From contig NZ_CABPSF010000014.1 in assembly GCF_902459685.1 (NCBI RefSeq), positions 1-38,986 of the forward strand: a DNA stretch of 38,986 bases, written 5' to 3'. This document shows, piece by piece, positions 8,287 to 38,644 of the stretch. This stretch comes from Pandoraea iniqua (GTDB lineage: Bacteria > Pseudomonadota > Gammaproteobacteria > Burkholderiales > Burkholderiaceae). The notes beneath the pieces are model-generated. The model ran no database searches, was not told where the DNA came from, and saw only the letters and a program-made list of their open reading frames with translations. The translations under genes were made by a program, and so were the position numbers. The first letter of the stretch is position 1, and each line of letters opens with the position of its first letter.

Positions 8287-8313
8287 TCGCGTTCAGGCAA
8301 ATAGGAGAAAGCA

Positions 8314-12681: not shown

Positions 12682-14886
12682 TCAGAACCCGAAGTGGCCC
12701 TGCACGTAGACCATGCGCGGGGCGCCGACCATGATGCCGCCGTTCTGATCGGTGTTACGCGTGTAGAAGCGCTTGTCGAAGACGTTGTTCACGCCCACGG
12801 TGACATCGGCGTTCTTGTAGAACGGCAGCTTGTACATCGCTTGCAGATTCCACACACGGTAACCCGGCACCTTGCCGTTGGTGCCGTCGGCCGATTGCGC
12901 TTCGGTGTTCGCCAAGTCCGAGTACTGCGAGCTTTGGTGCGTGGTCGAGACGTTGAGGGTCCACTGACCGATCGCGTAGCGCGCGCCGAGCGTGTCGGTA
13001 AAGCGGGAGTAGAACGGCACATCGAGGCCGGCCGTCGTGCCCGACTTCTGGATCGCACGCACGTAGGTGAAGTTCGCGTACAGGTTCAGGCCGCGCAGCA
13101 CGCTGTCGCGGTCGAAGGTGTAATCGAGCGCGGTTTCGATACCGTCGTGATTCGTCGCCCCGATGTTCTGGAAGGTCGCCGGGCTGACGTTCGGCACTTG
13201 CAGAATCTGGTTGTCGAACTTCATCTTGAACGCCGTCAACTCGGCGCGCCAGCGGTTGTCCGTCCAGCGCGTGCCGATTTCATACGTGCGCGCGACTTCC
13301 GGCTGAAGCGGGTTCGTCGCCGACATCGAGTTCAGCTGCGTGTTCTGCACCGGCCCGAACGACGTGCTGTAGTCCGCGAAGATCGTCCATGCGCTGTTCA
13401 CCAGATACGACAGGTTCACCGACGGCAGCGGCTTGTTGTTGTCGGTACGGAAGGTGTTGCCCGAGGCCTTGTCGACGCGTTGCGAAGCGATCATTTCGTA
13501 ACGCACGCCCGGCGTCAGACGCCAGTTGCCCCACGCCATACGGTCGTCGATATAGAACGCGTTCGCCGTGGTGTAGTTGTAGAACGTGGTGGTCGCCGAG
13601 TTCTTGCCGTTGGACAGGGTCGTGCTGAAGTTGTTGTCGTCGCCGCGCTCGCGCACGAAGCGATAGCCGACCGTAACGTCATGCGCCGTCGGGCCGAGGA
13701 ACAGGCGTTGCGTGTAGCGCGGCTCGATGCCGAACGTCTGATAGTTGCGCGGCTGGTGAATGGTCACGAGCGGCAGCACCGACAGATTGGTCAGCGAGCT
13801 TTGACGGTAGCTTTCGTTGAAGAACGTGCGGAGCTCGAATTCCTGCGTCTCCGAGATCGTGTTCAGGTAGCCGAAGTCGAGGCCGGTGCGATTGCCGCTC
13901 CAGTAGTCGTTCGGACGCGTGTTCTGGAACGGATCGGCGTTGTATTGCGCGGCGGTCAGGCCGCCCGGCGTCATCGACTTGGCGTCGTAATACGAGACCT
14001 TACCGTAGACCTGCTGGCTCGGCGTGATGTCGTAGCGCCACTTCAACGCGAGGTCGTTCACGTTCTCGTTGCTGCCCGTGCGCCAGTCGCGACCGACCAT
14101 GCCCGAGTAGAGCAACGCGAGGCCCAGCCCGTTGTCCATCTGGGTACCTAGGAACAGGCCGTATTGGGTATTGGCGCCGCCCCCGGTGGTGTAGATGTTC
14201 TGACGCACCGTGGCGTCGCCGGTCAGGCCCGGCGTATTCGGAATCGAGCGCGTCTTGAAGTTGATCACGCCGCCCACGTTTTGCGGGCCGTAGCGCACGG
14301 CTCCGCCGCTACGCACAACGTCGATGCTCTCGATGTTGAAGAGACTGACCGGGGCGAACGACAACTGCGGCTGGCCATAGGGCGCCACCGCGAGCGGAAT
14401 GCCGTCGAGCAGCACCGTCGAGCGCGGGCTGAAACGGCCCGCAAGACCGCGCACGCCGATGTTCAGCGAGATGGCGCTGCCGGCGGAGCTGGAGTTGTCA
14501 GTGGCTTGCACCCCCGGCACGCGGCGCAGCACGTCGCCGATGCTCGCCGCACCCGAGGCGTCGATCTGGTCTTTCTTCACGACCGTGCGTGCGCCCGGGA
14601 AGGTCTTCGCACTGTTATCGAGCCCCGTACCGAGCCAGTCGCCCGAAACGTTGACCGCACCGAGTTCGACGTCGGCCTTCGCCTCGTCGGCGGCGCGCGT
14701 GGCGGCGGCGTTGTTGGCCGAATTGCTGACCGAATCGCTGGCCTGCTGGGCATGGGCGACGCCGAGCGTGGCCATCAACAGGGCGGCGGCACAGGCGGTG
14801 GCACGGGGGAGGCGGGCTGCCGGCAACAGGGCGGCGGCGCTGAAAGTGGCCGGCGCTGACGCGCGGCGACGTTCGGACATCTTCAT
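12682..14886 (-). CDS. TonB-dependent receptor, FecA-like (ferric citrate type)
   Basis: A 734-residue outer-membrane iron-siderophore receptor. An N-terminal signal sequence ends near AHA/QQ (about residue 46). A short linker carries a possible TonB box (ELGAVNV). Plug-domain motifs follow: GDWLGTGLDNSAKTFPGAR, VLRRVPGVQATD, RSTVLLDGIPLAVAPYGQPQ and DVVRSGGAVRYGPQNVGG. The barrel ends in MVYVQGHFGF with a terminal aromatic. The motif series closely follows E. coli FecA from my knowledge of that sequence. The N-terminal signalling (STN) domain of FecA is absent, as are fecI and fecR neighbours, so it probably transports without surface signalling. It is divergent from hpaH. A Fur-box-like promoter lies upstream. 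The exact ligand cannot be read from sequence. Confidence 0.88.
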   Translation of the reverse strand: MKMSERRRASAPATFSAAALLPAARLPRATACAAALLMATLGVAHAQQASDSVSNSANNAAATRAADEAKADVELGAVNVSGDWLGTGLDNSAKTFPGARTVVKKDQIDASGAASIGDVLRRVPGVQATDNSSSAGSAISLNIGVRGLAGRFSPRSTVLLDGIPLAVAPYGQPQLSFAPVSLFNIESIDVVRSGGAVRYGPQNVGGVINFKTRSIPNTPGLTGDATVRQNIYTTGGGANTQYGLFLGTQMDNGLGLALLYSGMVGRDWRTGSNENVNDLALKWRYDITPSQQVYGKVSYYDAKSMTPGGLTAAQYNADPFQNTRPNDYWSGNRTGLDFGYLNTISETQEFELRTFFNESYRQSSLTNLSVLPLVTIHQPRNYQTFGIEPRYTQRLFLGPTAHDVTVGYRFVRERGDDNNFSTTLSNGKNSATTTFYNYTTANAFYIDDRMAWGNWRLTPGVRYEMIASQRVDKASGNTFRTDNNKPLPSVNLSYLVNSAWTIFADYSTSFGPVQNTQLNSMSATNPLQPEVARTYEIGTRWTDNRWRAELTAFKMKFDNQILQVPNVSPATFQNIGATNHDGIETALDYTFDRDSVLRGLNLYANFTYVRAIQKSGTTAGLDVPFYSRFTDTLGARYAIGQWTLNVSTTHQSSQYSDLANTEAQSADGTNGKVPGYRVWNLQAMYKLPFYKNADVTVGVNNVFDKRFYTRNTDQNGGIMVGAPRMVYVQGHFGF

Positions 14887-15022: not shown

Positions 15023-15268
15023 TTAATGGGTATTGCTGATCGAGAATCGGTATTTGCGGGTGCGCGGCCGTGGTGCGCATAGCGATACGCAAAAACGGAC
15101 ACATTGCTCGGAAAAGGACTATAAAAACGAAGAAATGCGGGAAGAAGCCGGAGAAACCGAATGCCGTTCGTGAATTTCAACGGGTAGTTGAGGCTGTGGC
15201 TGGATTGCGACAGTAGGGTCTTTCGGACCGGAAATAGGGGGGCAGAGAGGTGCCTGAGGGCCGGCCGA

Positions 15269-15318
15269 CGATTATCCAGTTTTACTTACTAATCGCCCAA
15301 AATCGATTGATTGTTCCG
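15269..15318 (+). promoter_or_regulatory. Shared regulatory block upstream of hpaH
   Basis: This 50-base stretch matches the minus strand of 26152-26201 at 45 of 50 positions, with the final 22 bases (15297-15318, containing AAAATCGATTGATTGTTCC) exact. In both places it points toward a catabolic gene: hpaH starts 122 bases downstream here, and tyrB 94 bases downstream there. The second copy abuts a LysR-family gene, so it is a good candidate for the binding site of that regulator. Confidence 0.75.
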
Positions 15319-15440
15319 TAGGCGCCGAGCCGCAAGAATAGAGCGCATCGAGACAAGAACCGCGCTGCCCCACATCGCGCTCTACGCGCCCCAAGCGCCC
15401 GAGCGTCCGAGCGAGCGGCGGCGCTACGGAGACAAACGAG

Positions 15441-16244
15441 ATGCTGGATGCGTCGATTCATCAAGCCCTTGCCCGCGAATTGCACGACGCCGAGCGCAGC
15501 CGCACGCCGGTCACGCAGTTCTCGCGCCGCTACCCCGACATGACCATCGCCGACAGCTACGCGATTCAGCAAGCGTGGCTCGCGCTGAAATACGCCGAAG
15601 GCCGGCGGGTGATCGGTCACAAGATCGGGCTGACCTCGCGCGCGATGCAGGTGGCCGCGCAAATCACCGAACCCGACCACGGCACGCTGCTCGACGACAT
15701 GCTCGTCGCCGACGGCGCAACGCTGGAAGCGGGGCGTTTCATCGTGCCGCGCCTCGAAGTGGAGCTGGCGTTCATTCTGGCCAAACCGCTCAAGGGCCCC
15801 GGCGTCACGCTGTTCGATGTGCTGGACGCCACGGCATGGGTCACGCCCGCGCTTGAGCTGATCGATGGCCGCATCGAGCTGTTCGACCGCGACACGCAGG
15901 CACCGCGCAAAGTGTTCGACACCATTGCCGACAACGCGGCCAATGCCGCCATCGTGCTGGGCGGGCGCCCGGTCAAACCGGATGCCATCGATCTGCGCTG
16001 GACGGGGGCGCTGCTCTACCGCAATGGCGTGATCGAAGAGTCGGGCCTGAGCGCCGCAGTGCTGAATCACCCGGGCAATGGTGTCGCGTGGCTCGCCAAC
16101 AAGTTGGGTGCCTTCGACGAAGGCTTACAGGCGGGCGAGATCGTGCTCGCCGGGTCGTTCACGCGACCGGTCGCCTGCAAGGCGGGCGATGTCTTTCATG
16201 CCGATTACGGCCCCTTGGGGGCGATCGGTGTGCGCTTCGTCTGA
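15441..16244 (+). CDS. hpaH: 2-oxo-hept-3-ene-1,7-dioate hydratase
   Basis: A 267-residue cytoplasmic metal-dependent hydratase that adds water to 2-oxohept-3-enedioate in the homoprotocatechuate meta-cleavage route. It has exactly the length of E. coli HpcG and shares long stretches with it as I recall that sequence: [49 protein letters not shown] and [13 protein letters not shown]. The conserved acidic residues of the hydratase/decarboxylase family (EVE, E in LELID) are present. ATG 15441 follows GGAG at a 9-base spacing. First gene of a tightly spaced operon (gap of 29 bases to hpaI). The shared LysR-type block lies upstream. Confidence 0.92.
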
Positions 16245-16273
16245 CCGACTCCCCGAACTTCGGAACCGACCTC

Positions 16274-17050
16274 ATGAAAACGCCCCCGAATGCATTCAAG
16301 CAGGCGCTCGCCAACCGGCAGCGCCAGATCGGCCTGTGGATGGGACTCGCCACGCCGTACGCCGCCGAGCTGTGCGCCGGCAGCGGCTTCGACTGGATCG
16401 TGATCGACGGCGAGCACGCGCCTAACGATCTGCGCTCGACGCTCGCCGCCCTTCAGGCGGTCGCGCCTTATCCGTCGCATCCAGTCGTGCGTTTGCCGCA
16501 TGGCGATGCGGTGCTCATCAAGCAGGTGCTCGAAATCGGCGCGACGACGTTGCTCGTGCCGATGGTCGAATCCGCAGACATGGCGGCGGCGCTGGTCAGT
16601 GCCATGCGCTATCCGCCGCAGGGCACGCGCGGTGTCGGCAGTGGGCTCGCCCGCTCGTCGCGCTGGAATCGCTATGACGACTATCTGCATGCGGCGAACG
16701 ACACCGCGTGTCTGCTGGTGCAGGTGGAAACCGCCGAGGCGCTCGCGCAGGTGGATGCCATCGCGTCGGTCGACGGCGTCGACGGGGTGTTTATCGGCCC
16801 GGCGGATCTGGCCGCGTCGATGGGTTATCTCGGGCAGGCGACCCATCCGGACGTGCGCAAGGCCATCGAAGACGGCATCGCGCGCATTCGCGCCGCCGGT
16901 AAACCGGCCGGCATCCTGTGCGTCGACGAGGCGCTGGCGCGCCATTACCTCGACCTCGGCGTGACCTTCATCGCCGTCGGCATCGACACGTCGCTGCTCG
17001 CCAACGCGAGCCGTGCGCTCGCCGCGAAGTTTACCGGCCCGGCAGATTGA
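16274..17050 (+). CDS. hpaI: 4-hydroxy-2-oxoheptanedioate aldolase
   Basis: A 258-residue class II pyruvate aldolase that splits 4-hydroxy-2-oxoheptanedioate into pyruvate and succinate semialdehyde, the last step of the homoprotocatechuate route. Family landmarks are clear: [15 protein letters not shown] with the catalytic His (residue 48), PVVR with the substrate-binding Arg, [11 protein letters not shown] with the metal-binding Glu, and [15 protein letters not shown] with the metal-binding Asp. The barrel runs nearly full length like E. coli HpaI (262 residues). I take ATG 16274 because the frame upstream overlaps hpaH and lacks homology. The Shine-Dalgarno is weak (CGGA). The gap to hpaE is 31 bases. 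Confidence 0.93.
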
Positions 17051-17081
17051 ATTCCCCCACTTTCCCCCAACGAGGCATCGC

Positions 17082-18557
17082 ATGAGCGCTTCCCGTTTTG
17101 ACGTCGCCGGTATTCCGGTGTCGCCAGACCATTTCATCGACGGCCGACGCGTGGCGTCGCCGGATACGTTCGAATGCGTTTCCCCCATCGATCAGACGCT
17201 GCTCGGCCATATCGCCAGCGGCAATCTCGCGCACGTGGACGCCGCCGTCACCTCGGCCGCGCAGGCGTTCCCCGCGTGGGCGGCGCTGGGCGCAGCCGCA
17301 CGCCAGCCGTATCTGCAACGCTTTGCCGACGCAATCGGGCGGCGCGCCGAAGCGTTCGCCACGCTGGAGAGCCACGATGCGGGCGTGTTGCGCTCGCGCA
17401 TGGCCCACGGCGTGGTGCCACGCGCGATGCAAAACATCACTTGGTTTGCCGAGCATGCACTGACGTTGCAGGACCGCGTGATCGAGACACCGCAGGCGCG
17501 CCATCTGGTGCGGCACGACCCGGCCGGTGTGGTGGCCATCATCACGCCGTGGAATTCGCCGCTGATGCTGGCGACGTGGAAGATCGGTCCGGCGCTCGCG
17601 TCCGGCAACACCGTGGTACTCAAGGCGCCCGAGTGGGCACCGCTCACGTCGTCGCTGCTGGCCGATTGTGCGGAAGAAGCGGGGTTGCCGCCCGGCGTAT
17701 TCAACCTGTTGCAGGGCTCGGGGGCGGTGACCGGGGCGGCGCTGGTGAGCGACTCGCGCCTCGCGCGAATCTCGTTCACGGGCTCGGTCACGACGGCGAA
17801 ATGGATCGCCAAAACGGCCGCCGCGAATCTGGTGCCGTGCAGTCTCGAACTCGGCGGCAAGTCGGCCTTCATCGTGCTCGCCGACGCCGATCTGGACGCC
17901 GCCGCTGCCACGGCCGCGCTGATGTATCGCAACGCCGGGCAAGTGTGTCTCGCGGGTACGCGACTGCTCGTGCATGCCGACGTCGCGCAACGTTTCACCG
18001 AGACGCTGCGCACGCTGGTCGAAAGCCTCGTCGTGGGCGACCCGCGTGAGGCGGCGACGGAAGTCGGCCCGATCATTCATCCGCGCCAACTGGAGCGTGT
18101 GGAAGGTTTTGTCGAGCGTGCCGTCGCGGGCGGGGCGCGTGTGCTGTGGGGTGGCAAGCGTCATCCGTTCGGTGCGCAGTATTTCGCGCCGACGCTGCTC
18201 ACCGACTTGCGTCAGCGCGACGAGATCGTGCAACAGGAAGTCTTCGGGCCGGTGCTCACGTTGCAGACGTTCCGAAGCGACGATGACGTCATCGAAATGG
18301 CCAACGGCACCGACTTCGGACTGGGCGGCGTCTGCTACGGCGACGAGGCGCATGCCATTGCCATCGCGCAGCGCGTGCGTACCGGCTTCATCTGGGTCAA
18401 TAGCTTCGGCATTCGCGATCTCGCGGCACCGTTCGGCGGGATCAAGCGCTCGGGCGTGGGCCGCGAAGGCGGCGAGTGGAGCTTCGAATTCTTCTGCGAC
18501 GTGAAGGATGTCGTCGTGCCGAAACAGCCGTTCAAGGCGAGCTTCAGCCATCGCTGA
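17082..18557 (+). CDS. hpaE: 5-carboxymethyl-2-hydroxymuconate semialdehyde dehydrogenase
   Basis: A 491-residue NAD-dependent aldehyde dehydrogenase that oxidises the ring-cleavage product of homoprotocatechuate. The Rossmann cofactor region includes ITPWNSPLMLATWKIGPALA and FTGSVTTAKWIA. The general base is Glu256 in SLELGGKS and the nucleophile is Cys289 in NAGQVCLAGTR. The C-terminal FGGIKRSGVGREGG motif is present. ATG 17082 with GAGG six bases upstream gives the HpaE length (about 488); an upstream in-frame extension would overlap hpaI. Substrate assignment leans on the flanking hpaH, hpaI and hpaD; the protein alone would support only aldehyde dehydrogenase. Confidence 0.9.
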   Translation: MSASRFDVAGIPVSPDHFIDGRRVASPDTFECVSPIDQTLLGHIASGNLAHVDAAVTSAAQAFPAWAALGAAARQPYLQRFADAIGRRAEAFATLESHDAGVLRSRMAHGVVPRAMQNITWFAEHALTLQDRVIETPQARHLVRHDPAGVVAIITPWNSPLMLATWKIGPALASGNTVVLKAPEWAPLTSSLLADCAEEAGLPPGVFNLLQGSGAVTGAALVSDSRLARISFTGSVTTAKWIAKTAAANLVPCSLELGGKSAFIVLADADLDAAAATAALMYRNAGQVCLAGTRLLVHADVAQRFTETLRTLVESLVVGDPREAATEVGPIIHPRQLERVEGFVERAVAGGARVLWGGKRHPFGAQYFAPTLLTDLRQRDEIVQQEVFGPVLTLQTFRSDDDVIEMANGTDFGLGGVCYGDEAHAIAIAQRVRTGFIWVNSFGIRDLAAPFGGIKRSGVGREGGEWSFEFFCDVKDVVVPKQPFKASFSHR

Positions 18558-18616
18558 TCATCGCTGATGGCATTGCCGCATTCAGTGAAAAAACAAGAGA
18601 GATTGAGGAGAACACC

Positions 18617-19510
18617 ATGGGACAGATCGTCGGCGCGGCATTGGTGTCGCACCATCCCGGTTTGATGCAGTGTGAAGAATTTCGCGTCTTGCAGGGCGCA
18701 GGCGCGGATTCGGATTTGATCGCCGGGTACACGCGCGTGCGCGAGCGAATCGCGGCGGCGAAGCCGGACGTCGTGCTGATTTTCGATTCGCACTGGTTCA
18801 CGACCGGCTATCACCTGATCGACGGCGGCGCGCGTTATTCCGGCATGTACGTCTCCGACGAGATGCCGTGGTATTTGCACGGTGTGCCGTATGACTATCG
18901 CGGTCATCCCGAACTCGCGCTCGCCGTGGAAGCCGTGGCGCGTGAGAAGCGTGTGCGGGCGCGGGCCGTGCAGCATCCCGATCTGCCGCGCCACTACCCG
19001 ACGATCAACGTCATCAAGCAGATGCGGCTCGATGCGTGGCCGATCGTGACCGTGAGTTCGTGCCAAAACTGCGAGACGGAGCATTTCCTGCAATCGGGGG
19101 AAGTGATCGGCGAGGCGATTCGCCGCAGCGATTTGCGGGTGGTGATGCTGGCGTCCGGTGCGCTGAGTCACAAGTTCAACGGTATCGACTGGACGCCGAC
19201 GCATCCGCGCATTTTTCACGAGAGCAATGTGTCGCGGCCGGAGAACATCGAGAGCGACAAGCGCGCGATCGAAGCGTTTCGCGAGGGGCGTCACGACCAG
19301 ATTCTGGCGGATTGGGACAGCGACTATCGCAAGCGCCCGTGGGAAGCTCACGGCGCGCACTATCTGCAAATGGTCGGTGCGCTGGGCGGCGCGGCATGCC
19401 GCAGCAAGGGCGTGGTGCTCTCCGATTACGAGAACGCGCGCGGCACCGGTAACGTGCATATCTGGTTCGACGGCGACGACAGTGCGAGCCGCACCGCGCG
19501 TCAGGCCTGA
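18617..19510 (+). CDS. hpaD: 3,4-dihydroxyphenylacetate 2,3-dioxygenase (LigB-type)
   Basis: A 297-residue extradiol ring-cleavage dioxygenase of the LigB/class III family. It opens homoprotocatechuate between C2 and C3 using Fe(II) and oxygen. Visible family features: SHHPGLM near the N-terminus (metal-binding His12/13), IFDSHWFTTGYH (His59), SDEMPWYL, HYPTINVIK and the LASGALSHKF loop. ATG 18617 has GAGGAG at 18605-18610; longer frames would run into hpaE. LigB-family enzymes with other diol substrates exist, so the substrate is inferred from the operon. It follows hpaE by 59 bases and precedes hpaG by 12. Confidence 0.85.
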   Translation: MGQIVGAALVSHHPGLMQCEEFRVLQGAGADSDLIAGYTRVRERIAAAKPDVVLIFDSHWFTTGYHLIDGGARYSGMYVSDEMPWYLHGVPYDYRGHPELALAVEAVAREKRVRARAVQHPDLPRHYPTINVIKQMRLDAWPIVTVSSCQNCETEHFLQSGEVIGEAIRRSDLRVVMLASGALSHKFNGIDWTPTHPRIFHESNVSRPENIESDKRAIEAFREGRHDQILADWDSDYRKRPWEAHGAHYLQMVGALGGAACRSKGVVLSDYENARGTGNVHIWFDGDDSASRTARQA

Positions 19511-19522
19511 GGGAGTGACACG

Positions 19523-20470
19523 ATGGATTTCGAATTTCCGCTGAAAGCCCTCCCCGAAGTCATGCGTGGCCCGCGTGTTGAACGCCGGCGCATTCTGCTG
19601 GGCGGCAGTGCGTTCTGGGGCACGATGATCGAAGACGGTTCGCTGCGTGGTCAGTTGCGACTCGACGACGGCCGTGTGGTCGATCCGCAAACGGTGGCGC
19701 ATCTGCCGCCCGTCGACCCGTCGAAGATCATCGCTGTGCATATCTCGTATCGCTCGCGCAGCATGGAAACGCGCAACAAGCCGAAGCCGACCGATACGCC
19801 GACGTATTTCACCAAGCCGCCGACCTCGCTCAACGGCCACGGCGGGCAGATTCTCAAGCCTGCCGATTGCAAGTATCTGAACTACGAGAGCGAGTATGCG
19901 GTGGTGATCAGCCGGACGTGCCGCAACATATTGCCCGACGAAGCGTGGGATTACATCGAAGGCTTTTGTCCGGCGCTCGATATGGGCTTGCAGGACTTTC
20001 GCGATACCGATCAGGGATCGATGTTGCGTGTGAAGGGCGCGGATACGCTGCTGCCGATCGGCCCCGGCATCGTGCGTGGCGTGAATCTGTTCGAGCAGAC
20101 ATTGCGCACGTATCGCAACGGACTGGTCGTGCAGGAGGCGCACATCGGCGATGAGACGATCTGGGGGCCGCATTACATGATCGCCGACATTGCGCGTCAC
20201 ATCACGCTGATGCCCGGCGACGTGATCCTGATGGGCACGCCGTGCCATTCGCGCTCGGTCGATGCGGGCGATCTGGTCGAGTGCGAGATCACCGGATTGG
20301 GCCGGCTGTCGGGCAGGGTGGTCGGCATCGAAGCGCCCCGTGCGGCGGCGCTCGGCGTGGGACATGCGCCGACCGATAGCCCCGAGGTGCGCCGCGTTGC
20401 GCTGGGCTTCGACGAACGTGTGCCGGAGCATTTCAAAGAAAACTATCGACGCGCGGCAAATAAGGCGTAG
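19523..20470 (+). CDS. hpaG: Fumarylacetoacetate-hydrolase-family decarboxylase/isomerase (HpaG-like)
   Basis: A 315-residue single-domain member of the FAH superfamily. The core runs from about residue 70 (KIIAVHISYRSRSMETRNKP) to 265. It has YFTKPPTSLNGHG, the metal-binding YESEYAVVI and DQGSMLRVKGADTLLPIGPGIV, and ends with PGDVILMGTPCHSRSVDAGDLVECEI. In E. coli the 5-oxopent-3-ene-1,2,5-tricarboxylate decarboxylase and the HHDD isomerase reside in one double-length protein of 429 residues. Here only one catalytic domain is present plus an N-terminal extension, so it may do one or both reactions as an oligomer. ATG 19523 follows GGGAG by 7 bases. Confidence 0.82.
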   Translation: MDFEFPLKALPEVMRGPRVERRRILLGGSAFWGTMIEDGSLRGQLRLDDGRVVDPQTVAHLPPVDPSKIIAVHISYRSRSMETRNKPKPTDTPTYFTKPPTSLNGHGGQILKPADCKYLNYESEYAVVISRTCRNILPDEAWDYIEGFCPALDMGLQDFRDTDQGSMLRVKGADTLLPIGPGIVRGVNLFEQTLRTYRNGLVVQEAHIGDETIWGPHYMIADIARHITLMPGDVILMGTPCHSRSVDAGDLVECEITGLGRLSGRVVGIEAPRAAALGVGHAPTDSPEVRRVALGFDERVPEHFKENYRRAANKA

Positions 20471-20550
20471 TTGACGTACGCGGTGGCGGCATCCGAAGAT
20501 GTCCCGGTCATGCCGGCATGTCGCGGCAATTCTTGGTACGGAGCAGACGA

Positions 20551-21540
20551 ATGAAGGTAACGATCATTGGCGCGGGCGCCATTGGCGGGTTGATCGGCAC
20601 GAAGCTGGCGGCGACGGGCGAAGCGCGGGTCAGCGCATTGGCGCGCGGCGCGACGCTGGCGGCGCTGCGTGAGCGCGGCTGGCGCGTGAAGCAGGGCGAG
20701 TCGCTCTCGGCAGCACCGGTGGCCGCAGCGCATCCGCTGGAAGACGCGGAGAAACTGGGCGTGCAGGATCTGGTGGTGATCGCGGTCAAAGGGCCGGCGC
20801 TCACCCAAGTGGCGGCCTCCATCGGGCCGCTGATCGGGCCGGACACGATCGTGCTGCCGGCGATGAACGGCGTGCCGTGGTGGTTCTGCAAGGGCGTGGC
20901 GCCGTTCGGCGACGAACCGTTGACGAGTGTCGACCCGGGTGGCGCCATCGGCGCAGCGATCCCGTTGGCGAACGTGTTGGGCTGTGTGGTGCACGCAAGC
21001 GCAGCCACCCCGGAGCCGGGGCTGGTCGATCACAAGATGGGACGCGGGTTGATCATCGGTGAGCCGGGTGGCGGTACCAGCGAACGTGTACAGAGGCTGG
21101 CCGGACTGCTCGAGCGTGCGGGCTTCGAGGTGAAAGCCTCGGAGAACGTCCGGCAGGACATTTGGTACAAGCTGTGGGGCAACCTGACGATGAACCCGGT
21201 GTCCGCGATCACCGGCGCGACCATCGACCGCGTGCTCGACGATCCGCTCGTGCGTGCGTTCTGCTCGGCGGCGATGGCCGAAGCGGCGACGATTGGCGGG
21301 AAGATTGGTTGCGTGATCGAGCAGTCGCCGGAAGACCGTCACGCGGTGACGGCGAAGCTCGGTGCGTTCAAGACGTCGATGTTGCAGGATGTGGAAGCCG
21401 GCAGGCCGATTGAACTCGACGCACTGGTGAGCGTGGTGCGCGAGATGGGACAGACGCTTTCGGTGGCGACGCCGAATATCGATTCGTTGCTCGGGTTGGC
21501 GCGTTTGTTTGGGCGGGTGCGCGGGTTGTATCCGCAGTAA
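20551..21540 (+). CDS. Ketopantoate reductase family protein (2-dehydropantoate 2-reductase-like)
   Basis: A 329-residue NADPH-dependent reductase fold. The N-terminal nucleotide motif is MKVTIIGAGAIGGLIGTKLA. The catalytic region is typical of the family: VIAVKGPALTQVA, then NVRQDIWYKLWGNLTMNPVSAITGAT with conserved Lys and Asn. The C-terminal helical domain is full length. I use ATG 20551 (GGAG at 20541-20544), since the motif begins there. It is 80 bases after hpaG on the same strand and may be cotranscribed. Pantothenate synthesis is one possibility, but the context of a catabolic operon suggests reduction of another 2-oxo acid. The stop codon lies inside a short tandem repeat. Confidence 0.8.
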   Translation: MKVTIIGAGAIGGLIGTKLAATGEARVSALARGATLAALRERGWRVKQGESLSAAPVAAAHPLEDAEKLGVQDLVVIAVKGPALTQVAASIGPLIGPDTIVLPAMNGVPWWFCKGVAPFGDEPLTSVDPGGAIGAAIPLANVLGCVVHASAATPEPGLVDHKMGRGLIIGEPGGGTSERVQRLAGLLERAGFEVKASENVRQDIWYKLWGNLTMNPVSAITGATIDRVLDDPLVRAFCSAAMAEAATIGGKIGCVIEQSPEDRHAVTAKLGAFKTSMLQDVEAGRPIELDALVSVVREMGQTLSVATPNIDSLLGLARLFGRVRGLYPQ

Positions 21541-21572
21541 GTGTGCGCAGTAAGTGTGCGCAGTAAGTCTGC
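21534..21572. repeat. Three tandem 13-bp units at the end of the reductase gene
   Basis: GCAGTAAGTGTGC is present at 21534-21546 and 21547-21559 and, with one change (GTC for GTG), at 21560-21572. The first unit carries the gene's TAA stop. The array looks like slippage duplication; no function is evident. Confidence 0.85.
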
Positions 21573-21629
21573 GCACCATCGACCCGCATGAAAGCGGCGG
21601 ACTGCGTTGCCGAGTCCGCCGTGAAGACC

Positions 21630-22457
21630 TTAACGCGTTATGGCGAGCGACATCGATGCCATTGGCGCCAGCGTGAATCGTGTCAGGGTCTGGTCGATGC
21701 CACGATTCTCCGGTGTGAAGGCGCCCATCGATTGCAGCAGTGCATCGAGCTTTGCGGTGACCGGCGTGTGCCCGGCGGCGCGAGGCATGACCTGCGGCGC
21801 AGCCAGCACATCACACCATTGCGAGCTACGTGCGGCTGCCATCAGTGGCTCGACGATTTCTGCTGGCTTCCCGGCCGGGACAAATTTGAATTCCGCGAAC
21901 ACCTTGTTTTCGAGATCCGCGGGCTTCAGGTCCTTGGGCAGGTCTGCGTCGGCATATGCCCGACTTTGAACGATCTTGCCGCCTTCCAGAAGATTCGAGC
22001 TCACGCTTAGCGTCATGTTGCCGTGGTCGAAGCGAATGCCGTAATCGATGCTTACCTGACGTCCGTTCTGATCGACGAAAGCGTCTCGTTTCGGGAAGAG
22101 CTCCATGCCTGCGCTAGCGTGCATGAACGAGTCGATGGCCGCGTGCAGCTCATCCTTGTCCATACGTGCGTACTCGGGCGAGAGATTGTGATTGTCGATT
22201 TGGTTGACGATCTCCAGCCCGTGCGCGACGGAGTTGATCGGGATGGAGTCGTTGGGAATCTCACTGAACCCGGGGTGCCGCGTCTGAAACGATCGGAGGC
22301 CCTCGACCACGTCCGCCAAATCTTTCATCCCGGCGTCTCCAAGATGCTGTGCGCCGTGCCCCCCTCTGTTGACGGGGATATTCTTCCCCGTTAACTGCGA
22401 GAAATCTCTGACAAGGGCGACAAATTTAAGCTGCGCATAATTCATTGAATCGGACAT
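21630..22457 (-). CDS. Hypothetical protein
   Basis: A 275-residue soluble protein that I do not recognise. The sequence has no signal peptide or membrane segment. It begins MSDSMNYAQLKFVALVRDF and contains an N-terminal helix-rich part (KDLADVVEGLRSF, KDELHAAIDSFMHAS). A central beta-rich part (RQVSIDYGIRFDHGNMTLSVSS) and a C-terminal stretch ending LAPMASMSLAITR follow. I choose ATG 22457 over an in-frame start 123 bases upstream because GGAG lies 8 bases before it. Base composition looks somewhat less GC-rich than the hpa genes. It is convergent with the reductase gene and next to a toxin-antitoxin pair, so it may be horizontally acquired. A secreted effector is conceivable but unsupported. 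Confidence 0.6.
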   Translation of the reverse strand: MSDSMNYAQLKFVALVRDFSQLTGKNIPVNRGGHGAQHLGDAGMKDLADVVEGLRSFQTRHPGFSEIPNDSIPINSVAHGLEIVNQIDNHNLSPEYARMDKDELHAAIDSFMHASAGMELFPKRDAFVDQNGRQVSIDYGIRFDHGNMTLSVSSNLLEGGKIVQSRAYADADLPKDLKPADLENKVFAEFKFVPAGKPAEIVEPLMAAARSSQWCDVLAAPQVMPRAAGHTPVTAKLDALLQSMGAFTPENRGIDQTLTRFTLAPMASMSLAITR

Positions 22458-22656
22458 TGCATACGCTCCAGATCGTTTCGAGGAAACCCGCGAATTCGAT
22501 GCCCTGATCGCAGGTTGCATTGACTTTGCGACGGGGCGCTGACGGGATGTCGATTCACCCGGCGATCTGTGAAATGTCACTTCAAGGGCGGGAAAAAACT
22601 GAGGCCATTCCGTATGAAATGGCCTCGGTCGTTGGCATTAGCGAATCTGGGTCGTG

Positions 22657-22740
22657 TTACCGCACCCCGGTATGCCGGTAAATCCGGCTCAGGGCGGCGA
22701 ATCCGATAGCGGCAGCAGCGATGAAGCCGCGTGCGGGCAT
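22657..22740 (-). pseudogene. Relict 3' end of an MHS transporter gene
   Basis: On the minus strand this stretch translates to an MPARG lead-in, then GFIAAAAIGFAALSR, then IYRHTGVR and a stop. It matches the last 23 residues of the intact transporter at 23413-24711 (AAAAIGLLALSRIYRHTGVR). At DNA level 26 bases are identical (22667-22692 and 23423-23448), flanked by diverged codons. No other part of a second transporter is present; upstream on this strand lies mntA. It looks like the stump left when a paralogue was disrupted, or a displaced copy of the transporter 3' end. Confidence 0.7.
22667..22692. repeat. 26-bp direct repeat, left copy
   Basis: Identical to 23423-23448, which lies in the 3' end of the intact transporter gene. 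The two copies, 756 bp apart and in the same orientation, bracket the mntA-hepT pair. Confidence 0.9.
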
Positions 22741-22784
22741 GGGTTATATTGACGGCTGTCGAGTCATCTTTGTCGAGGTGCGTC

Positions 22785-23075
22785 ATGCGACCATCCATGG
22801 TGCTGCAACTGAAGCGCGCCGCAGTCCGCGAGGCGGCTGAGCGTTATCACACCGTAAATCCGCGAGTGTTCGGATCGGTGCTGCGGGGAACGGATCGCGA
22901 CGACAGCGATCTCGATCTTCTGGTGGATGCTTTGCCCGGCACGACACTCTTCGATCTCGGCGGCTTGCAGGATGAATTGGAGTCGATGCTGGGCGTGCAC
23001 GTCGATGTGCTGACGCCAGCAGATCTCCCATTGAAATTTCGGGCACAGGTACTCGCTGAGGCTCGTCCTGTATGA
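22785..23075 (+). CDS. mntA: MNT-domain nucleotidyltransferase, antitoxin of an MNT/HEPN pair
   Basis: A 96-residue minimal nucleotidyltransferase. The active-site signature GSVLRGTDRDDSDLDLLVD fits the GSX10DXD motif of type VII antitoxins, which AMPylate and neutralise the HEPN partner. It ends with VDVLTPADLPLKFRAQVLAEARPV, typical of the family. ATG 22785 with GAGG six bases upstream is preferred over a longer in-frame start at 22731 that lacks a Shine-Dalgarno. The stop overlaps the next start by four bases (ATGA), as usual for antitoxin-toxin coupling. It lies between a relict transporter 3' end and hepT. Confidence 0.88.
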   Translation: MRPSMVLQLKRAAVREAAERYHTVNPRVFGSVLRGTDRDDSDLDLLVDALPGTTLFDLGGLQDELESMLGVHVDVLTPADLPLKFRAQVLAEARPV

Positions 23076-23395
23076 GTGAGACACGTCTACCCGACTATCT
23101 CGACCATATGCGGCTGGCAGCAACCGATGCCTGCGACTTTGTCGACGGTTTGTCAAAGGAAGACTTTCTTCAGGACAAGCGCACGCAGCAAGCTGTGGTG
23201 ATGAGTCTGATAATCATCGGCGAAGCGGCTACCAAGATCATGGACCGCTACGCTGACTTCTCCCAAGCGCATTCAGAGGTGCCGTGGCGAGCGATGCGCG
23301 GCATGCGCAATCGCATCGCTCACGGCTACTTCGAAATCAATCTCGACATGGTCTGGGACACTATCTCGCGTTGCCGGATCTCCTCGACCGACTGA
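23072..23395 (+). CDS. hepT: HEPN-domain toxin (HepT-like) with a frameshifted C-terminus
   Basis: A 107-residue DUF86/HEPN protein. The RNase motif RX4HXY is intact as RNRIAHGY (around residues 84-91), and the preceding helix RTQQAVVMSLIIIGEAATKI is typical. The family normally continues past WDTI into a D/E-L-P-x-L helix. Here the frame instead reads SRCRISSTD and stops. The next frame from 23371 to 23406 encodes LPDLLDRLNEL and a stop, just what is expected. A net loss of one base (mod 3) near 23369 therefore appears to have scrambled the last helix. The catalytic residues remain, but folding or MntA contact could be affected. It overlaps mntA by 4 bases. Confidence 0.85.
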   Translation: MSETRLPDYLDHMRLAATDACDFVDGLSKEDFLQDKRTQQAVVMSLIIIGEAATKIMDRYADFSQAHSEVPWRAMRGMRNRIAHGYFEINLDMVWDTISRCRISSTD

Positions 23396-23412
23396 ACGAG
23401 CTCTAAGTCAAC

Positions 23413-24711
23413 CTAGCGCACGCCGGTATGCCGGTAAATCCGGCTCAGAGCGAGGAGCCCGATTGCGGCCGCGGCCATCATGTAGAAGCTCGGTGCCAGC
23501 TTGCTGCCGGTCACGTTGATGAGCCACGTCAGGATGAATGGGGCGAAGCCGCCGAAGAACGTCACCGACAGGTTGTACGACAGCGACAGGCCCGTGGTGC
23601 GCGTCTTCACCGGGAAGATCTCGGACGCCAGTGCGGGCAACGGCGCAAAGTACACCGTCATCAGCACCCCCAGCACCGTTTGCAGCGCGAGCATCATGCC
23701 GAAGCTCGGATACGTCGAGAGCAGCCAGAACATCGGCCAGATCAGTACCAGCAATGCTGCCGCCGCAATCATCATCGGCTTCGTGCGACCGGCACGGTCC
23801 GACCACGCGCCCACCACCGGCGACAGGAACATCTGCACCAGCCCCGTGGCCACCGTCGCGGCAAACGCCACCGATGCCGGCAACCCCAACTGCTTGATCG
23901 CATACGTCGGCATGTACAGCACGAGATACGTCGACACCGTTGCGACGACGACAGCGCCCACCGCGAGCAGCAGACGCATCTTCTGATGCTCCAGCGTGTC
24001 GCGTAACGGCGTCTCGGTCGGCTCGGCTTGCAGGAACTCCGGCGTCTCGTCGACATGGCGACGGATGTAATACGCCACCGGGCCGATCAACAGACCGAAC
24101 AGGAACGGCACACGCCAGCCCCAACTCTGCATTTGCTCCGGTGACAGCGTGCTGGTGAGCAACGCGCCGAACCCGGCAGCGAGCAGCGTCGTCAGGCCCT
24201 GACTCGCGACCTGAAAGCTCGCGAAGAAGCCGCGTCGCCGTGGCGCGTGTTCGGCCAGAAACGCCGTCGCGCTGCCGAATTCACCGCCCGCAGAAAAGCC
24301 CTGAATCATCCGCGCCAAGACGATCCCCACAGGCGCGAGTACGCCGATGGAAGCGTACGTCGGCATGAACGCGATGATCGCCGTGCCGACCATCATCATC
24401 AGAATGGTCAGCGTGAGCGCCGCGCGTCGCCCCTGCTTGTCGGCATAGACACCAATGACAATCGCACCCAGCGGGCGCATGAAGAACGACACGCCGAAGG
24501 TGCCCAGCGTGAGCAGCAGCGAAGTGGTGTCGTCATGCGTCGGGAAGAACAGCTTCGCAATGGTTACGGCAAAGAAGCCGTACACCACCAGATCGAACCA
24601 TTCGAGCGCATTGCCGATGGACGCGGAAATGACCGCACGCCAAGGGTGCTTGGCAATGTGGTCGCCTTGGTGCGCGTCAGGACGCGCGCCGGCGGCGGTG
24701 GCTGTTGTCAT
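23413..24711 (-). CDS. MFS transporter, metabolite:H+ symporter (MHS) family
   Basis: A 432-residue inner-membrane carrier with about twelve hydrophobic segments. The opening ISASIGNALEWFDLVVYGFF is the MHS signature shared by ProP, KgtP, ShiA and citrate carriers. GVYADKQGRRAAL in the loop between helices 2 and 3 is the MFS signature. RMIQGFSAGGEFGSATAFLAEHAPRRRGFFAS in helices 4-5 is also characteristic. The substrate cannot be read from sequence: a dicarboxylate, an aromatic acid or a betaine are all possible. It precedes tyrB-like aminotransferase on the same strand, downstream of it by 134 bases. Its stop codon lies only 6 bases beyond the ancestral stop of hepT. Confidence 0.88.
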   Translation of the reverse strand: MTTATAAGARPDAHQGDHIAKHPWRAVISASIGNALEWFDLVVYGFFAVTIAKLFFPTHDDTTSLLLTLGTFGVSFFMRPLGAIVIGVYADKQGRRAALTLTILMMMVGTAIIAFMPTYASIGVLAPVGIVLARMIQGFSAGGEFGSATAFLAEHAPRRRGFFASFQVASQGLTTLLAAGFGALLTSTLSPEQMQSWGWRVPFLFGLLIGPVAYYIRRHVDETPEFLQAEPTETPLRDTLEHQKMRLLLAVGAVVVATVSTYLVLYMPTYAIKQLGLPASVAFAATVATGLVQMFLSPVVGAWSDRAGRTKPMMIAAAALLVLIWPMFWLLSTYPSFGMMLALQTVLGVLMTVYFAPLPALASEIFPVKTRTTGLSLSYNLSVTFFGGFAPFILTWLINVTGSKLAPSFYMMAAAAIGLLALSRIYRHTGVR

Positions 24712-24818
24712 GGTGTCTCCAGTCGACGTGATGTCGTGATGTAGTTATCGATTCGGCATGCGTTTGGCGGAGGCATGCGCTCCGTGTTTCCGATGATCCG
24801 TTTCTGGCAGTTCTTTGC

Positions 24819-24838
24819 CGGGGGCGCCAACGCCCCCG
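24819..24838 (-). other. GC-rich stem-loop after the aminotransferase gene
   Basis: CGGGGGCG (24819-24826) and CGCCCCCG (24831-24838) form an 8-bp stem with a four-base loop, 8 bases after the aminotransferase stop. There is no U tract on either strand, so it is not a canonical terminator. It may stabilise the 3' end or separate the gene from the transporter. Confidence 0.4.
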
Positions 24839-24845
24839 TGCTATC

Positions 24846-26057
24846 TCAGTGACCCGACAGCACCTGCGCAATCGCACCGGCAACCGTGCCGACATTGCGC
24901 GTGTTGAGTCCCGCCACGCACATGCGTCCCGAGCGCAGGATGTAGACGCCGTGGGTTTCGCGTAGCGCGTCTGCCTGCGCTGCGGACAATCCGGTGTACG
25001 TGAACATGCCGCGCTGCGCGAGGTAGCGCGAACGCTTCTCGTCGCTGACATGCGAAGCGAGTTGCGCGTGAATTTCGGTGCGCATCGCGGCGATACGCGT
25101 GCGCATGCCGTCGAGTTCGCTTTCCCATGCTTGGCGCAGCGCGGGGGTCGTGAGTACCTGTGCGACGAGTCGCGCACCATGCGTGGGCGGGTTGCTGTAG
25201 TTGGCACGCACCGTGCCGGTGAGCTGTCCGAAGACGCGTGAGGCTTCCTCGGCCGAAGTGCAGACGACCGACAACGCGCCGCACCGCTCGCCATACAGCG
25301 AGAAGTTCTTCGAGAACGAGTTCGCCACGACGGTCGGTACGCCCGACTCGGTGAGTGCGCGCACGGCGAAGGCGTCGGCATCGAGTCCGTCGCCGAAGCC
25401 CTGATACGCCATATCGACGAAAGCGATGAGGCCGCGCTCGCGCAGTACCGGGATCAGTGTCTGCCACTGCTGCGGGGTGAGATCGACGCCGGTCGGGTTA
25501 TGGCAGCACGCGTGCAGCAGCACGATGCTTTGCGGCGGCAGTTTGGCAAGGGTGTCGAGCATGGCGTCGAAACGCAGGCCGCCGGTCGCGTCGTCGTAAT
25601 ACGGATACGCCTGCACGGGAAAACCGGCGCTCTCGAACACGACGCGATGGTTGTCCCAACTGGGATCGCTGATCCACACGGTGGCGTCGGGGAAGTAGCG
25701 CTTGAGGAAGTCGGCACCCACGCGTAGCGCGCCACCGCCACCGAGGGTCTGCAAAGTGGCAATGCGCTGCTCGCGGCGGGCGGCGCAGGCGTCGCCGAAC
25801 ACAAGGGCCTGCACGGCGTCGCGATAGGCGGCAGAGCCGGCCATCGGCAGGTACGGGCGCGGACCGATGTCGGCCAGTACGCGGGCTTCCGCCTCGCGCA
25901 CGGCGCCCATCACGGGCAGACGGCCAGCGTCGTCGAAATAGATGCCGATCGACAGGTTGACCTTATGTGGCCGGGGGTCCTGACCGAACGCTTCGTTCAG
26001 ACCAAGGATCGGGTCGCCGGGATAGGCATCGACGTGAGAAAACGTAGAACCTCGCAT
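24846..26057 (-). CDS. tyrB: Aromatic amino acid aminotransferase (class I, TyrB/AspC type)
   Basis: A 403-residue PLP enzyme that interconverts tyrosine, phenylalanine or aspartate with their 2-oxo acids. The AspC/TyrB family is evident from YPGDPILGLNEAF, VNLSIGIYFDD, GPRPYLPMAGSAAYR, HACCHNPTGVDLT, FVDMAYQGFGDGLD and the PLP lysine Lys250 in NSFSKNFSLYGERCG with Arg258. The start is ATG 26057 (MRGSTFSHV). Its promoter region shares a 50-bp block with the hpa operon and abuts a divergent LysR gene. A role in feeding tyrosine-derived carbon into 4-hydroxyphenylpyruvate and onward is therefore likely. TyrB versus AspC specificity is not settled by sequence. Confidence 0.88.
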   Translation of the reverse strand: MRGSTFSHVDAYPGDPILGLNEAFGQDPRPHKVNLSIGIYFDDAGRLPVMGAVREAEARVLADIGPRPYLPMAGSAAYRDAVQALVFGDACAARREQRIATLQTLGGGGALRVGADFLKRYFPDATVWISDPSWDNHRVVFESAGFPVQAYPYYDDATGGLRFDAMLDTLAKLPPQSIVLLHACCHNPTGVDLTPQQWQTLIPVLRERGLIAFVDMAYQGFGDGLDADAFAVRALTESGVPTVVANSFSKNFSLYGERCGALSVVCTSAEEASRVFGQLTGTVRANYSNPPTHGARLVAQVLTTPALRQAWESELDGMRTRIAAMRTEIHAQLASHVSDEKRSRYLAQRGMFTYTGLSAAQADALRETHGVYILRSGRMCVAGLNTRNVGTVAGAIAQVLSGH

Positions 26058-26125
26058 GAAACCTCGCAGGGGGCGTCGCAGACTCTGGACGCAAATGGAT
26101 CAAAGGAATCGCAGTGGATTTTTGA

Positions 26126-26169
26126 AATCGATTGTGGGCGACGACCCTTTGCGGAACAATCAATCGATT
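26126..26169. promoter_or_regulatory. 9-bp inverted repeat in the tyrB-lysR intergenic region
   Basis: AATCGATTG (26126-26134) and CAATCGATT (26161-26169) are exact inverted copies with centres 35 bases apart. The right arm lies inside the block shared with the hpa promoter. The arrangement suits a LysR tetramer contacting two sites between its own gene and a divergent target. Confidence 0.6.
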
Positions 26170-26201
26170 TTGGTCGATTCGTAAGCGAAACTTGATAATC
26201 G
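26152..26201 (-). promoter_or_regulatory. Shared regulatory block between tyrB and the LysR gene
   Basis: Read on the minus strand, toward tyrB, this matches 15269-15318 upstream of hpaH at 45 of 50 positions; bases 26152-26173 are an exact 22-base match. The block ends 7 bases before the LysR start codon. A LysR protein bound here would be expected to autoregulate and to control tyrB. Confidence 0.75.
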
Positions 26202-26208: not shown

Positions 26209-27141
26209 ATGCCCCTGACCCGTGTCACGCTGCGCCAGTTCGAAGCCCTGATTGCCATTGCCGAGCTGCACAGCTTCGCCGAAGCCGGCAAGCGGCTGGG
26301 TCTCACGTCGTCGGCGGTGAGCCAACTCGTGGCCGAGCTTGAATCCGTACTCGGCTTCCGCATCTTCGATCGCACGACGCGACGTGTGGCGCTCTCCAGT
26401 GCCGGACGCGACTTTCTTGCATCTGCGGAGTCCGTGTTGCGTCACGTGCAGGCGGCGGAGAAGACTGCCGACGATTTGCGCAATCGTGCCGCCGGCATCG
26501 TGCGCGTGGGGGCGCCGCTCGTACTCGCGGGCATGGCACTGCCGGCAGCGATTCGCGACTACGCGGCGTTGCGTCCGAAGGTTGTCGTGCGCGTGGTCGA
26601 TACGCCGGTCGACGCGCTGATCGATCACGTCGCCAATGGCGATCTCGATCTCGCCATCGGCCCCAATCGTGCGACCGGTGCGCATGTTGCCGGGGCGCCG
26701 GCGTTCGATAGTCCGTGGGTGTTGTGGTGCGCGCCGTCGCACCCGCTCGCCAAACGCAAGCGACTGCGCTGGCAAGACCTGCGTGACACGCCGCTCGTGG
26801 CCGCAGGACGCGATCACGAGCGCAGCGTCGAGCAAATGCGCGCGAGCGCACCGCCCGACGCACGCATCACGCCCATCGATGTCGTCGATAACGTGACCAC
26901 GGCGCTCGGCATTGCGGCGCAGGGTCTCGCGTCCACGCTGACCCCCGGCTATGTGGCGGCGCTCGCCAATACCTTCGGTCTGGTGATGCAGCGCGTGGTC
27001 GCGCCGGAGACGATCCGTCAGGTGTGTGTGTATCGGCCGGTGTCGCGCGCCGCGTCACCCGCTGCCGAAGGTTTCGCGCAATTTCTGCTCGACTGGTTGC
27101 CGCAGTGGAACGAACGCATCATGTCGGCCTCGCGTGATTGA
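26209..27141 (+). CDS. LysR-family transcriptional regulator
   Basis: A 310-residue DNA-binding regulator. The N-terminal winged helix-turn-helix (about residues 5-65) reads VTLRQFEALIAIAELHSFAEAGKRL then LTSSAVSQLVAELESVLG and FDRTTRRVALSSAGRDFL. The remainder is the effector-binding domain of two alpha/beta lobes. It is divergent from tyrB across 151 bases. No Shine-Dalgarno is visible before ATG 26209, and the conserved block ends 7 bases upstream. By family behaviour it should activate the divergent gene in response to a pathway metabolite. The second copy of the block at the hpa promoter extends the likely regulon to the ring-cleavage operon. The effector is unknown. Confidence 0.92.
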   Translation: MPLTRVTLRQFEALIAIAELHSFAEAGKRLGLTSSAVSQLVAELESVLGFRIFDRTTRRVALSSAGRDFLASAESVLRHVQAAEKTADDLRNRAAGIVRVGAPLVLAGMALPAAIRDYAALRPKVVVRVVDTPVDALIDHVANGDLDLAIGPNRATGAHVAGAPAFDSPWVLWCAPSHPLAKRKRLRWQDLRDTPLVAAGRDHERSVEQMRASAPPDARITPIDVVDNVTTALGIAAQGLASTLTPGYVAALANTFGLVMQRVVAPETIRQVCVYRPVSRAASPAAEGFAQFLLDWLPQWNERIMSASRD

Positions 27142-30602: not shown

Positions 30603-31394
30603 ATGCCGATCTCAAGTGCGGTAACCCTGGATGGTCCAGGTCACGACCGCCCCGTCGGCGCGCTGGCGAAAGATTACCCAGATGGTTTTATCGTGACGCC
30701 CCACAGCCACCGGCGTGCGCAACTGATGTTCGCGCGTGCTGGAATTCTGGAAGTACGCACGGATACGTCGTTCTGGGTAATACCGCCGCAACGCGCGTTG
30801 TGGATTCCGGGGAACGTCTCGCATGAAGTGCGTATGCGGGGCAAAGTCGAAATGCGCACGATTTACGTCGACGTGGCGCGCTGTGGTCTGAGCGCCCCCG
30901 ACACGCCGGTGGCCATTCGCGTCACCCCGTTGCTGCGCGAGCTGATTCTGCGCGCCATGGCGCTACCCAAAGACTGGGCCGCCGACGGCAAAGACGGTCT
31001 GGTCATCGCCCTGCTGCTGCACGAAATCGAATGGAAGAGCGACACGCCGCTGCACTTGCAGGTGCCGGTCGATGCCCGCTTGCGCAAGATCTTCGACGCT
31101 TATCTGGCCACACCGGCCGACATGCGCAGCTTGCAGGATTGGGCGTCCGAAGTGGGCGCGTCGAGCCGTACGCTGGAGCGCCGTTTCATGACGGAGTTCG
31201 GTTTGCCGTTTCGGGAGTGGCGGCAACACATGCGGCTGCTCGGCGCATTGCCGCTGCTGGGGGCCGGGCGGCCCATCACGCAGGTGGCGCTCGAAGTCGG
31301 TTACGACACGCCGAGCGCGTTCTCCACGATGTTTCGCCGCCTTATGGGCGTGACGCCAAGCGAATACCTGACGCGCGGCCGGCACCCGGATTGA
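30603..31394 (+). CDS. AraC-family transcriptional regulator
   Basis: A 263-residue regulator. An N-terminal cupin-type sensing domain (HSHRRAQLMFARAGILEVRT, WVIPPQRALWIPGNVSHEVRM, about residues 33-80) precedes a C-terminal double helix-turn-helix. That part reads LQDWASEVGASSRTLERRFMTEFGL then FREWRQHMRLLGALPLL, and finally ITQVALEVGYDTPSAFSTMFRRLMGVTPSEYL. The layout resembles the NimR/YeaM group, which controls adjacent efflux pumps; no such gene is adjacent here. Its 3' end overlaps the 3' end of the convergent HAD hydrolase by 53 bases. Confidence 0.88.
   Translation: MPISSAVTLDGPGHDRPVGALAKDYPDGFIVTPHSHRRAQLMFARAGILEVRTDTSFWVIPPQRALWIPGNVSHEVRMRGKVEMRTIYVDVARCGLSAPDTPVAIRVTPLLRELILRAMALPKDWAADGKDGLVIALLLHEIEWKSDTPLHLQVPVDARLRKIFDAYLATPADMRSLQDWASEVGASSRTLERRFMTEFGLPFREWRQHMRLLGALPLLGAGRPITQVALEVGYDTPSAFSTMFRRLMGVTPSEYLTRGRHPD

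Positions 31395-36541: not shown

Positions 36542-38644
<2,103 letters not shown>

Follow-up and report, generated by a model that had tools for sequence, protein, structure and literature searches.

In a 38,986-nucleotide (nt) stretch of the Pandoraea iniqua genome (RefSeq assembly GCF_902459685.1, contig NZ_CABPSF010000014.1, positions 1 to 38,986), here called the window, a block of about 50 base pairs (bp) is found twice: once before a ring-cleavage operon that begins with hpaH and once in the gap between tyrB and the lysR gene divergent from it. The block is very probably a LysR-type operator combined with a sigma-70 promoter, through which the LysR protein would activate both units. As read from the sequence, good support for a single LysR regulon containing tyrB and the ring-cleavage operon comes from the co-occurrence of LysR with the block, the register of the -10 elements, the size and position of the operator, and sites of the same layout beside LysR orthologues in other genera. 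The initial annotation of this DNA had proposed a LysR regulon linking tyrosine transamination to homoprotocatechuate cleavage. The shared regulon with its two promoters is retained here, and the tyrosine-to-homoprotocatechuate route is not.

The repeated block in Pandoraea

All coordinates are window positions. When both strands are read, 15269-15318 matches the reverse-complemented 26152-26201 at 45/50 bases, and the exact 22-base core of the two (15297-15318 and 26152-26173) is the sole inverted exact match of at least 18 bases in the window, where base composition leads to a chance expectation of about 0.00014 inverted 22-mers. In the block numbering used below, position 1 is the G of GATTATC (15270 and 26200), and in that register the copies agree at 44/50 positions. 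A BLAST search of the whole assembly (6.34 Mb, 17 contigs) with 15230-15400 returned only two places at E <=0.001, the second being exactly 26201-26152, at 90%. The first copy lies 122 bases from hpaH (ATG at 15441) and the second 94 bases from tyrB (start at 26057); the second also directly precedes the LysR start at 26209. The earlier description of the block and its core, of the two gene distances and of the adjoining LysR gene is thus borne out by reading and by BLAST, and its view that an exact 22-mer is not expected by chance is in line with the base composition.

The motif search suggested in the initial annotation, through the genome and its relatives, was run on 32 Pandoraea genomes (source genome included) with <=3 mismatches and a reversed-pattern control. 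One or two sites per genome were found in 27 genomes and 0 in the other 5, the reversed control gave 0, and copies at many unrelated places were not seen. Over 50 sites (27 on the hpaH side and 23 on the lysR side, four of the 27 genomes being left out of the latter with three decayed sites and one absent), 30/50 block columns are invariant. Mean likeness between species is 45.1/50 among hpaH-side sites and 47.5/50 among lysR-side sites, compared with 40.2/50 for the pair within a genome. Because each copy is closer to its counterparts elsewhere than to its partner in the same genome, the two appear to be old and separately kept. A recent duplication or a dispersed repeat without regulatory meaning could account for the 45/50 identity within the window, and for the greater likeness of the copies in the source genome and its nearest relatives (44/50 in the source genome, within a range of 37-46/50 over 23 genomes). 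However, with two copies per genome at most and a likeness across species that exceeds the likeness within genomes, the dispersed repeat was rejected, and the probability left to this explanation as a whole is negligible.

To follow the genes around the block, stretches were taken from the 26 other locus-bearing genomes and their genes were ordered. The 27 genomes (27/32) that carry the block are identical to those that carry a LysR orthologue (>=88% identity), and the extradiol dioxygenase is confined to the same 27/32. The ring-cleavage operon with its hpaH-side site is present in 27/27. Genes for a major facilitator superfamily (MFS) transporter and TyrB stand between this operon and lysR in 22/27, and the tyrB/lysR gap with the block is likewise seen in 22/27; in the five others (G008, G010, G011, G024 and G029) no MFS or tyrB match was found in between, and lysR comes after apbA. 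A well-preserved lysR-side site (<=5 mismatches to the window copy) was found in 23/27 genomes, always 8 nt from the lysR start, and 22 of these 23 have tyrB. The site is decayed in G008, G011 and G029, with 11-12 mismatches to the window copy and 9-11 departures from the lysR-side consensus; its -10 CACAAT has become CACCAT or CACCAG, and it is still 8 nt from the lysR start. In G024, which is without tyrB, the lysR-side site was not detectable. Decay or loss of the site where tyrB is lost suggests that the lysR-side site follows tyrB, with G010 as an exception taken up below.

Predicted operator, promoters and mode of control

The binding sites of LysR regulators are described as usually spanning 50-60 bp: a part near -65 serves recognition, another at -35/-10 serves activation, and the site often adjoins the regulator's own, divergent gene (PMC8407307). 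Column percentages for the block were computed from 27 + 23 + 19 site rows (the last from other genera) reduced to 65 unique ones, and among the pooled sites the highest-scoring dyad (0.604) is ATT-N3-AAG-N5-CTT-N3-AAT, which has its centre at position 13. The -35 element, TTGTtc, occupies columns 42-47, and the -10 element follows 17 bp on, at columns 65-70. On the hpaH side the -10 reads AAGAAT in 25 genomes and AACAAT in 1, all in the same register, the last genome being shifted by 1 base; a -10-like hexamer, xAxACT, stands in that register in 19/19 other-genus sites. The distance from the block to hpaH ranges from 67 to 124 nt among genomes (starts placed by tblastn), while the spacing from block to -10 is constant (26/27 hpaH-side and 23/23 lysR-side sites), which indicates that promoter spacing is what is held. 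Transcription starts about 7 nt after a -10 element, so that the dyad centre falls at about -64. The layout is therefore that of LysR-type sites, with a dyad at about -64 from the predicted start and a conserved second element overlapping -35. Both -10 elements, AAGAAT and CACAAT, are weak (4/6 to TATAAT). Two other candidates for the recognition sequence were rejected: the perfect inverted repeat AATCGA-N6-TCGATT of copy 2 as main dyad, as 18/23 well-preserved lysR-side sites have AATGGA or AATAGA, and T11-N11-A23 as a general box, as position 11 is A in at least 15/19 other-genus sites.

On this anatomy, the LysR protein (26209-27141) most likely binds both copies as a tetramer, one dimer being anchored on the ATT-N3-AAG-N5-CTT-N3-AAT dyad near -64 and the other sitting on AATCGATTGATTG against the -35. 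An aromatic effector would then shift LysR and free the -35, so that RNA polymerase could start from the weak AAGAAT or CACAAT, and the ring-cleavage operon (hpaH-hpaI-hpaE-ligB-faaG-apbA) and the tyrB unit would be transcribed together. At copy 2, LysR would probably also repress lysR itself, because the bound protein would cover the lysR start region, including GATAAT 9 nt from the ATG. By sequence, the solved relatives of the LysR protein are distant, and OxyR-type chains ('hydrogen peroxide-inducible genes activator') score best among them. The overlap of the second dimer site with the -35 would also suit a protein that acts mainly by repression, which an inducer would lift at both promoters, and some LysR proteins do repress (PMC8407307). 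However, the -10 elements are weak, the -64/-35 layout is that of activated promoters, and the core promoter begins only downstream of the first dimer site, which makes such a repressor unlikely.

Compared with known LysR-type divergent units, the activated two-promoter regulon is alike in the divergence of regulator and target, in an operator of ~50 bp with parts near -65 and -35, and in likely autoregulation, but it differs by a second operator about 11 kb off with no regulator gene beside it. Such a small regulon is of a familiar kind. In the literature searched, no report was found of a LysR regulon joining tyrB and a ring-cleavage operon; absence from print is not claimed. In Azotobacter and Shewanella, a LysR regulator of the homogentisate route, HmgQ, has been predicted (PMC5343134). 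It is alike in its family, in its connection with aromatic amino acid degradation and in being a comparative-genomics prediction, and it is set apart, by its description rather than by sequence or motif, in that its targets are hmg/hpd and not tyrB with an extradiol operon.

The LysR lineage in other genera

A sample of 349 genomes of the family gave LysR matches at E <=1e-85 in 54, comprising the 27 Pandoraea and 27 others. Regions were fetched for 24 of the 27 non-Pandoraea genomes, the 3 unfetched being among the 8 at 52-59% identity. The orthologue set consists of 19 genomes with a 65-70% identical LysR; the more distant loci L160-L164 were viewed and not counted. In 18/19 genomes of the set, tyrB or hpaH faces the LysR orthologue: tyrB and then apbA in 16, hpaH with an hpa-like operon in 2 (G185 and G144), while G165 has neither. 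In all 19, a site arranged as in Pandoraea stands 5-6 nt ahead of lysR, with the -10-like hexamer in register. With a pattern from the genus-20 sites, exactly one site was found in 15/19 genomes and none in 4. One of the 16 tyrB-facing genomes was annotated, and there tyrB and apbA are separated by a class II aldolase gene. On one G144 contig the genes run on one strand, in sequence, from hpaI to apbA and on to an aldehyde dehydrogenase, an ABC transporter and tyrB, and a second contig carries hpaH, the site and lysR; the TrpX-like binding protein of the transporter scores 293.7 bits, below its cut-off of 390. From its gene order, G144 looks like both Pandoraea operons fused, and it is the best support from outside the genus for their joint working. 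In the other genera, control by this LysR lineage seems to extend to the tyrB half only, or to cover the whole set from one promoter.

G165 (locus L148) carries the LysR orthologue and a site with 4 mismatches at 7603-7650, with lysR turned to the + strand; no tyrB or hpa match was found within the 16 kb fetched around this orthologue. Among the LysR relatives of L160-L164 (53-59%), a weak site match (8-9 mismatches) was found in four and none in one, and visual reading of the gene opposite LysR suggests an MFS transporter in several cases. Three more distant homologues (51-54%, plasmid records) were found in Paraburkholderia.

The block always accompanies a multi-gene cluster, which raises the question of whether a different regulator binds it, with the adjacency of LysR being incidental. 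Candidates are the AraC-type protein encoded within the window (30603-31394) and a LysR paralogue, 48-50% identical, that is present in 10/32 Pandoraea genomes. However, the same-layout site stays 5-6 nt from the LysR orthologue in 19/19 other-genus genomes with varied genes opposite, no araC homologue was detected in the fetched other-genus stretches (tblastn, E 1e-8, 50 bits), and the paralogue has no match in the source genome at E 1e-60. Binding by another regulator is therefore very unlikely. At three loci of the paralogue (L060-L062), the next gene resembles, on visual reading, a class II aldolase gene, which is also the type found after tyrB in the other genus.

Several points weigh against a LysR regulon with activation at both promoters. 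The 5 Pandoraea genomes without the block are also without LysR and the dioxygenase, so that co-occurrence cannot separate LysR from the rest of the cluster. G010 lacks tyrB and yet has a good lysR-side site, and the three decayed sites belong to a single LysR clade (G008, G011 and G029; support 93/92) and so probably reflect a single event. G185 and G144, where LysR faces hpaH and which are the most telling genomes, have the poorest site letters, with 10 and 8 mismatches to the anchor pattern. The dyad centred on position 13 wins narrowly, at 0.604 against 0.573 for the runner-up centred on 30.5. As read from the columns, a T-N11-A pair is not conserved across all groups, while T6-N12-A19 nearly is. 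Lastly, the direction of control, activation as opposed to repression, is one that we infer.

Genes, substrate and surroundings

The features of the two units are collected in Table 1.

Table 1. Predicted regulatory elements and genes of the ring-cleavage and tyrB units in the window (bit scores are given with the model cut-offs)
Feature	Position	Strand	Basis
Copy 1, putative operator-promoter block upstream of hpaH operon	15269..15319	+	45/50 to copy 2; before hpaH in 27/27 locus-bearing Pandoraea
Copy 1 predicted LysR recognition site, ATTnnnnAG-N5-CTTnnnAAT, centre 15282, about -64	15271..15293	+	Best-scoring dyad, pooled unique sites
Copy 1 predicted activation site, AATCGATTGATTG, overlaps -35	15301..15313	+	Columns 32-44 of the block; no variation in 50 Pandoraea sites
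hpaH promoter -35, TTGTTC (predicted)	15311..15316	+	TTGT in 27/27
hpaH promoter -10, AAGAAT, 17-bp spacer (predicted)	15334..15339	+	Same register in 26/27
hpaH, 2-oxohept-4-ene-1,7-dioate hydratase	15441..16244	+	TIGR02312, 433.8 bits (cut-off 351.5)
hpaI, 4-hydroxy-2-oxoheptanedioate aldolase; start 16274 picked by eye	16274..17050	+	TIGR02311, 387.4 bits (cut-off 368.8)
hpaE-like aldehyde dehydrogenase; first listed start, true start may be downstream	17013..18557	+	PF00171; TIGR02299, 480.7 bits, below cut-off 638.35
LigB-type extradiol dioxygenase, distant HpaD	18608..19510 (query stretch; listed open reading frame from 18476)	+	PF02900; TIGR02298, 130.3 bits, below cut-off 315.95
faaG, FAA-hydrolase family protein, HpaG-like isomerase/decarboxylase	19523..20470	+	PF01557; TIGR02303, 155.6 bits, below cut-off 276.4
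apbA, ApbA/PanE-type ketoacid reductase, last in presumed operon	20518..21540	+	PF02558/PF08546; NF005089, 407.6 bits (cut-off 223)
MFS metabolite/H+ symporter, downstream of tyrB	23413..24711	-	PF07690; with tyrB in 22/27, absent with tyrB in 5
tyrB, aromatic amino acid transaminase	24846..26057	-	NF006719, 571 bits (cut-off 377)
tyrB promoter -10, CACAAT, 17-bp spacer (predicted)	26131..26136	-	23/23 well-preserved sites
tyrB promoter -35, TTGTTC (predicted)	26154..26159	-	23/23 well-preserved sites
Copy 2, putative operator-promoter block, tyrB/lysR gap	26151..26201	-	Match to copy 1; 8 nt from lysR start
Copy 2 predicted LysR recognition site, ATTATCAAG-N5-CTTACGAAT, centre 26188, about -64 for tyrB	26177..26199	-	Dyad scoring
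GATAAT, 9 nt before lysR ATG, possible lysR -10 inside operator	26194..26199	+	Sequence only
LysR-type regulator, divergent from tyrB	26209..27141	+	HTH_1 PF00126, 63.8 bits; LysR_substrate PF03466, 110.8 bits; both above cut-off

The tyrosine-to-homoprotocatechuate route of the initial annotation is the part that fared less well. It would fit the aromatic aminotransferase TyrB, the scores of HpaH and HpaI above their equivalog cut-offs, and a dioxygenase whose nearest solved structure by sequence is 8iq8, a 3,4-dihydroxyphenylacetate 2,3-dioxygenase (E 7.9e-22). However, HpaH and HpaI alone pass, the HpaE, HpaD and HpaG models all scoring below cut-off, and HpaB (PF03241) has no match in the source genome, being lacking in 14/27 locus-bearing genomes and present in 13/27. 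The HpaF isomerase (CHMI, PF02962) was found in 0/27 locus-bearing genomes, other hydroxylase and isomerase families not having been searched, and hpd, for an enzyme of the homogentisate route, is present in 31/32 genomes including the source. With HpaB and HpaF not found and hpd present, this is not the textbook hpa route, and the homoprotocatechuate regulon as first proposed is doubtful. Matches to HpaF are restricted to G023, G025 and G030, 3 of the 5 Pandoraea genomes without the locus, and the classical and divergent hpa sets look as if they replace each other. When 300 genomes sampled from the order were searched for the dioxygenase (E 1e-90), only the source genome matched.

A compound that enters the route as a catechol would be a better fit. 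It is possible, and proposed here tentatively, that the regulon serves an as yet undescribed pathway acting on an aromatic amino acid or on the catechol form of one (e.g. DOPA). The compound would be taken up and transaminated by TyrB, the ApbA-type reductase would deal with the keto acid, and a divergent HpaD would carry out extradiol cleavage with neither HpaBC nor HpaF, while LysR would sense an intermediate. In Escherichia coli W, hpa meta-cleavage is under HpaR (MarR) and hpaBC under HpaA (AraC/XylS), and the hpa genes of Burkholderia xenovorans LB400 are likewise reported to be under HpaR (PMC7180172). The Pandoraea genes are like those hpa operons in HpaH and HpaI and, as we infer, in the chemistry of the remaining steps, but they differ by putative LysR control, by HpaB and HpaF not being found, by distant HpaE, HpaD and HpaG, and by the addition of an ApbA-type reductase and tyrB.

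The catabolic genes are flanked by core genes, namely those for ribosomal proteins L11 and L1, rpoB and rpoC (1324-12537) on one side and elongation factor G (36542-38644) on the other. A reading of the two long open reading frames before the TonB receptor as siderophore synthetases was rejected; they are rpoB and rpoC. The TonB-dependent receptor gene itself (12682-14886) lies on the upstream side of copy 1 and is transcribed away from the hpaH operon; all 27 genomes have a homologue in that place. Between the operons, at 22785-23395, two small genes overlap, one for a nucleotidyltransferase (PF01909) and one with an RNRIAH motif, a pair that we take to resemble HEPN/MNT. An exact direct repeat of 26 bases (22667-22692 and 23423-23448) surrounds this pair; because the second repeat copy is at the 3' end of the MFS gene, a piece of the gene end lies beyond the small genes, as if duplicated or inserted. 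The window also holds genes for the AraC-type protein (30603-31394) and for a MocR-type regulator with GntR and aminotransferase domains (33671-35203).

Altogether, the analysis yields a testable two-promoter regulon with an operator model, predicted to the level of bases, for the LysR protein, in which an aminotransferase is tied to a ring-cleavage operon, two enzymes of the textbook hpa route not being found in the genome. The operator sequence may be used to trace this regulator across other Burkholderiaceae.

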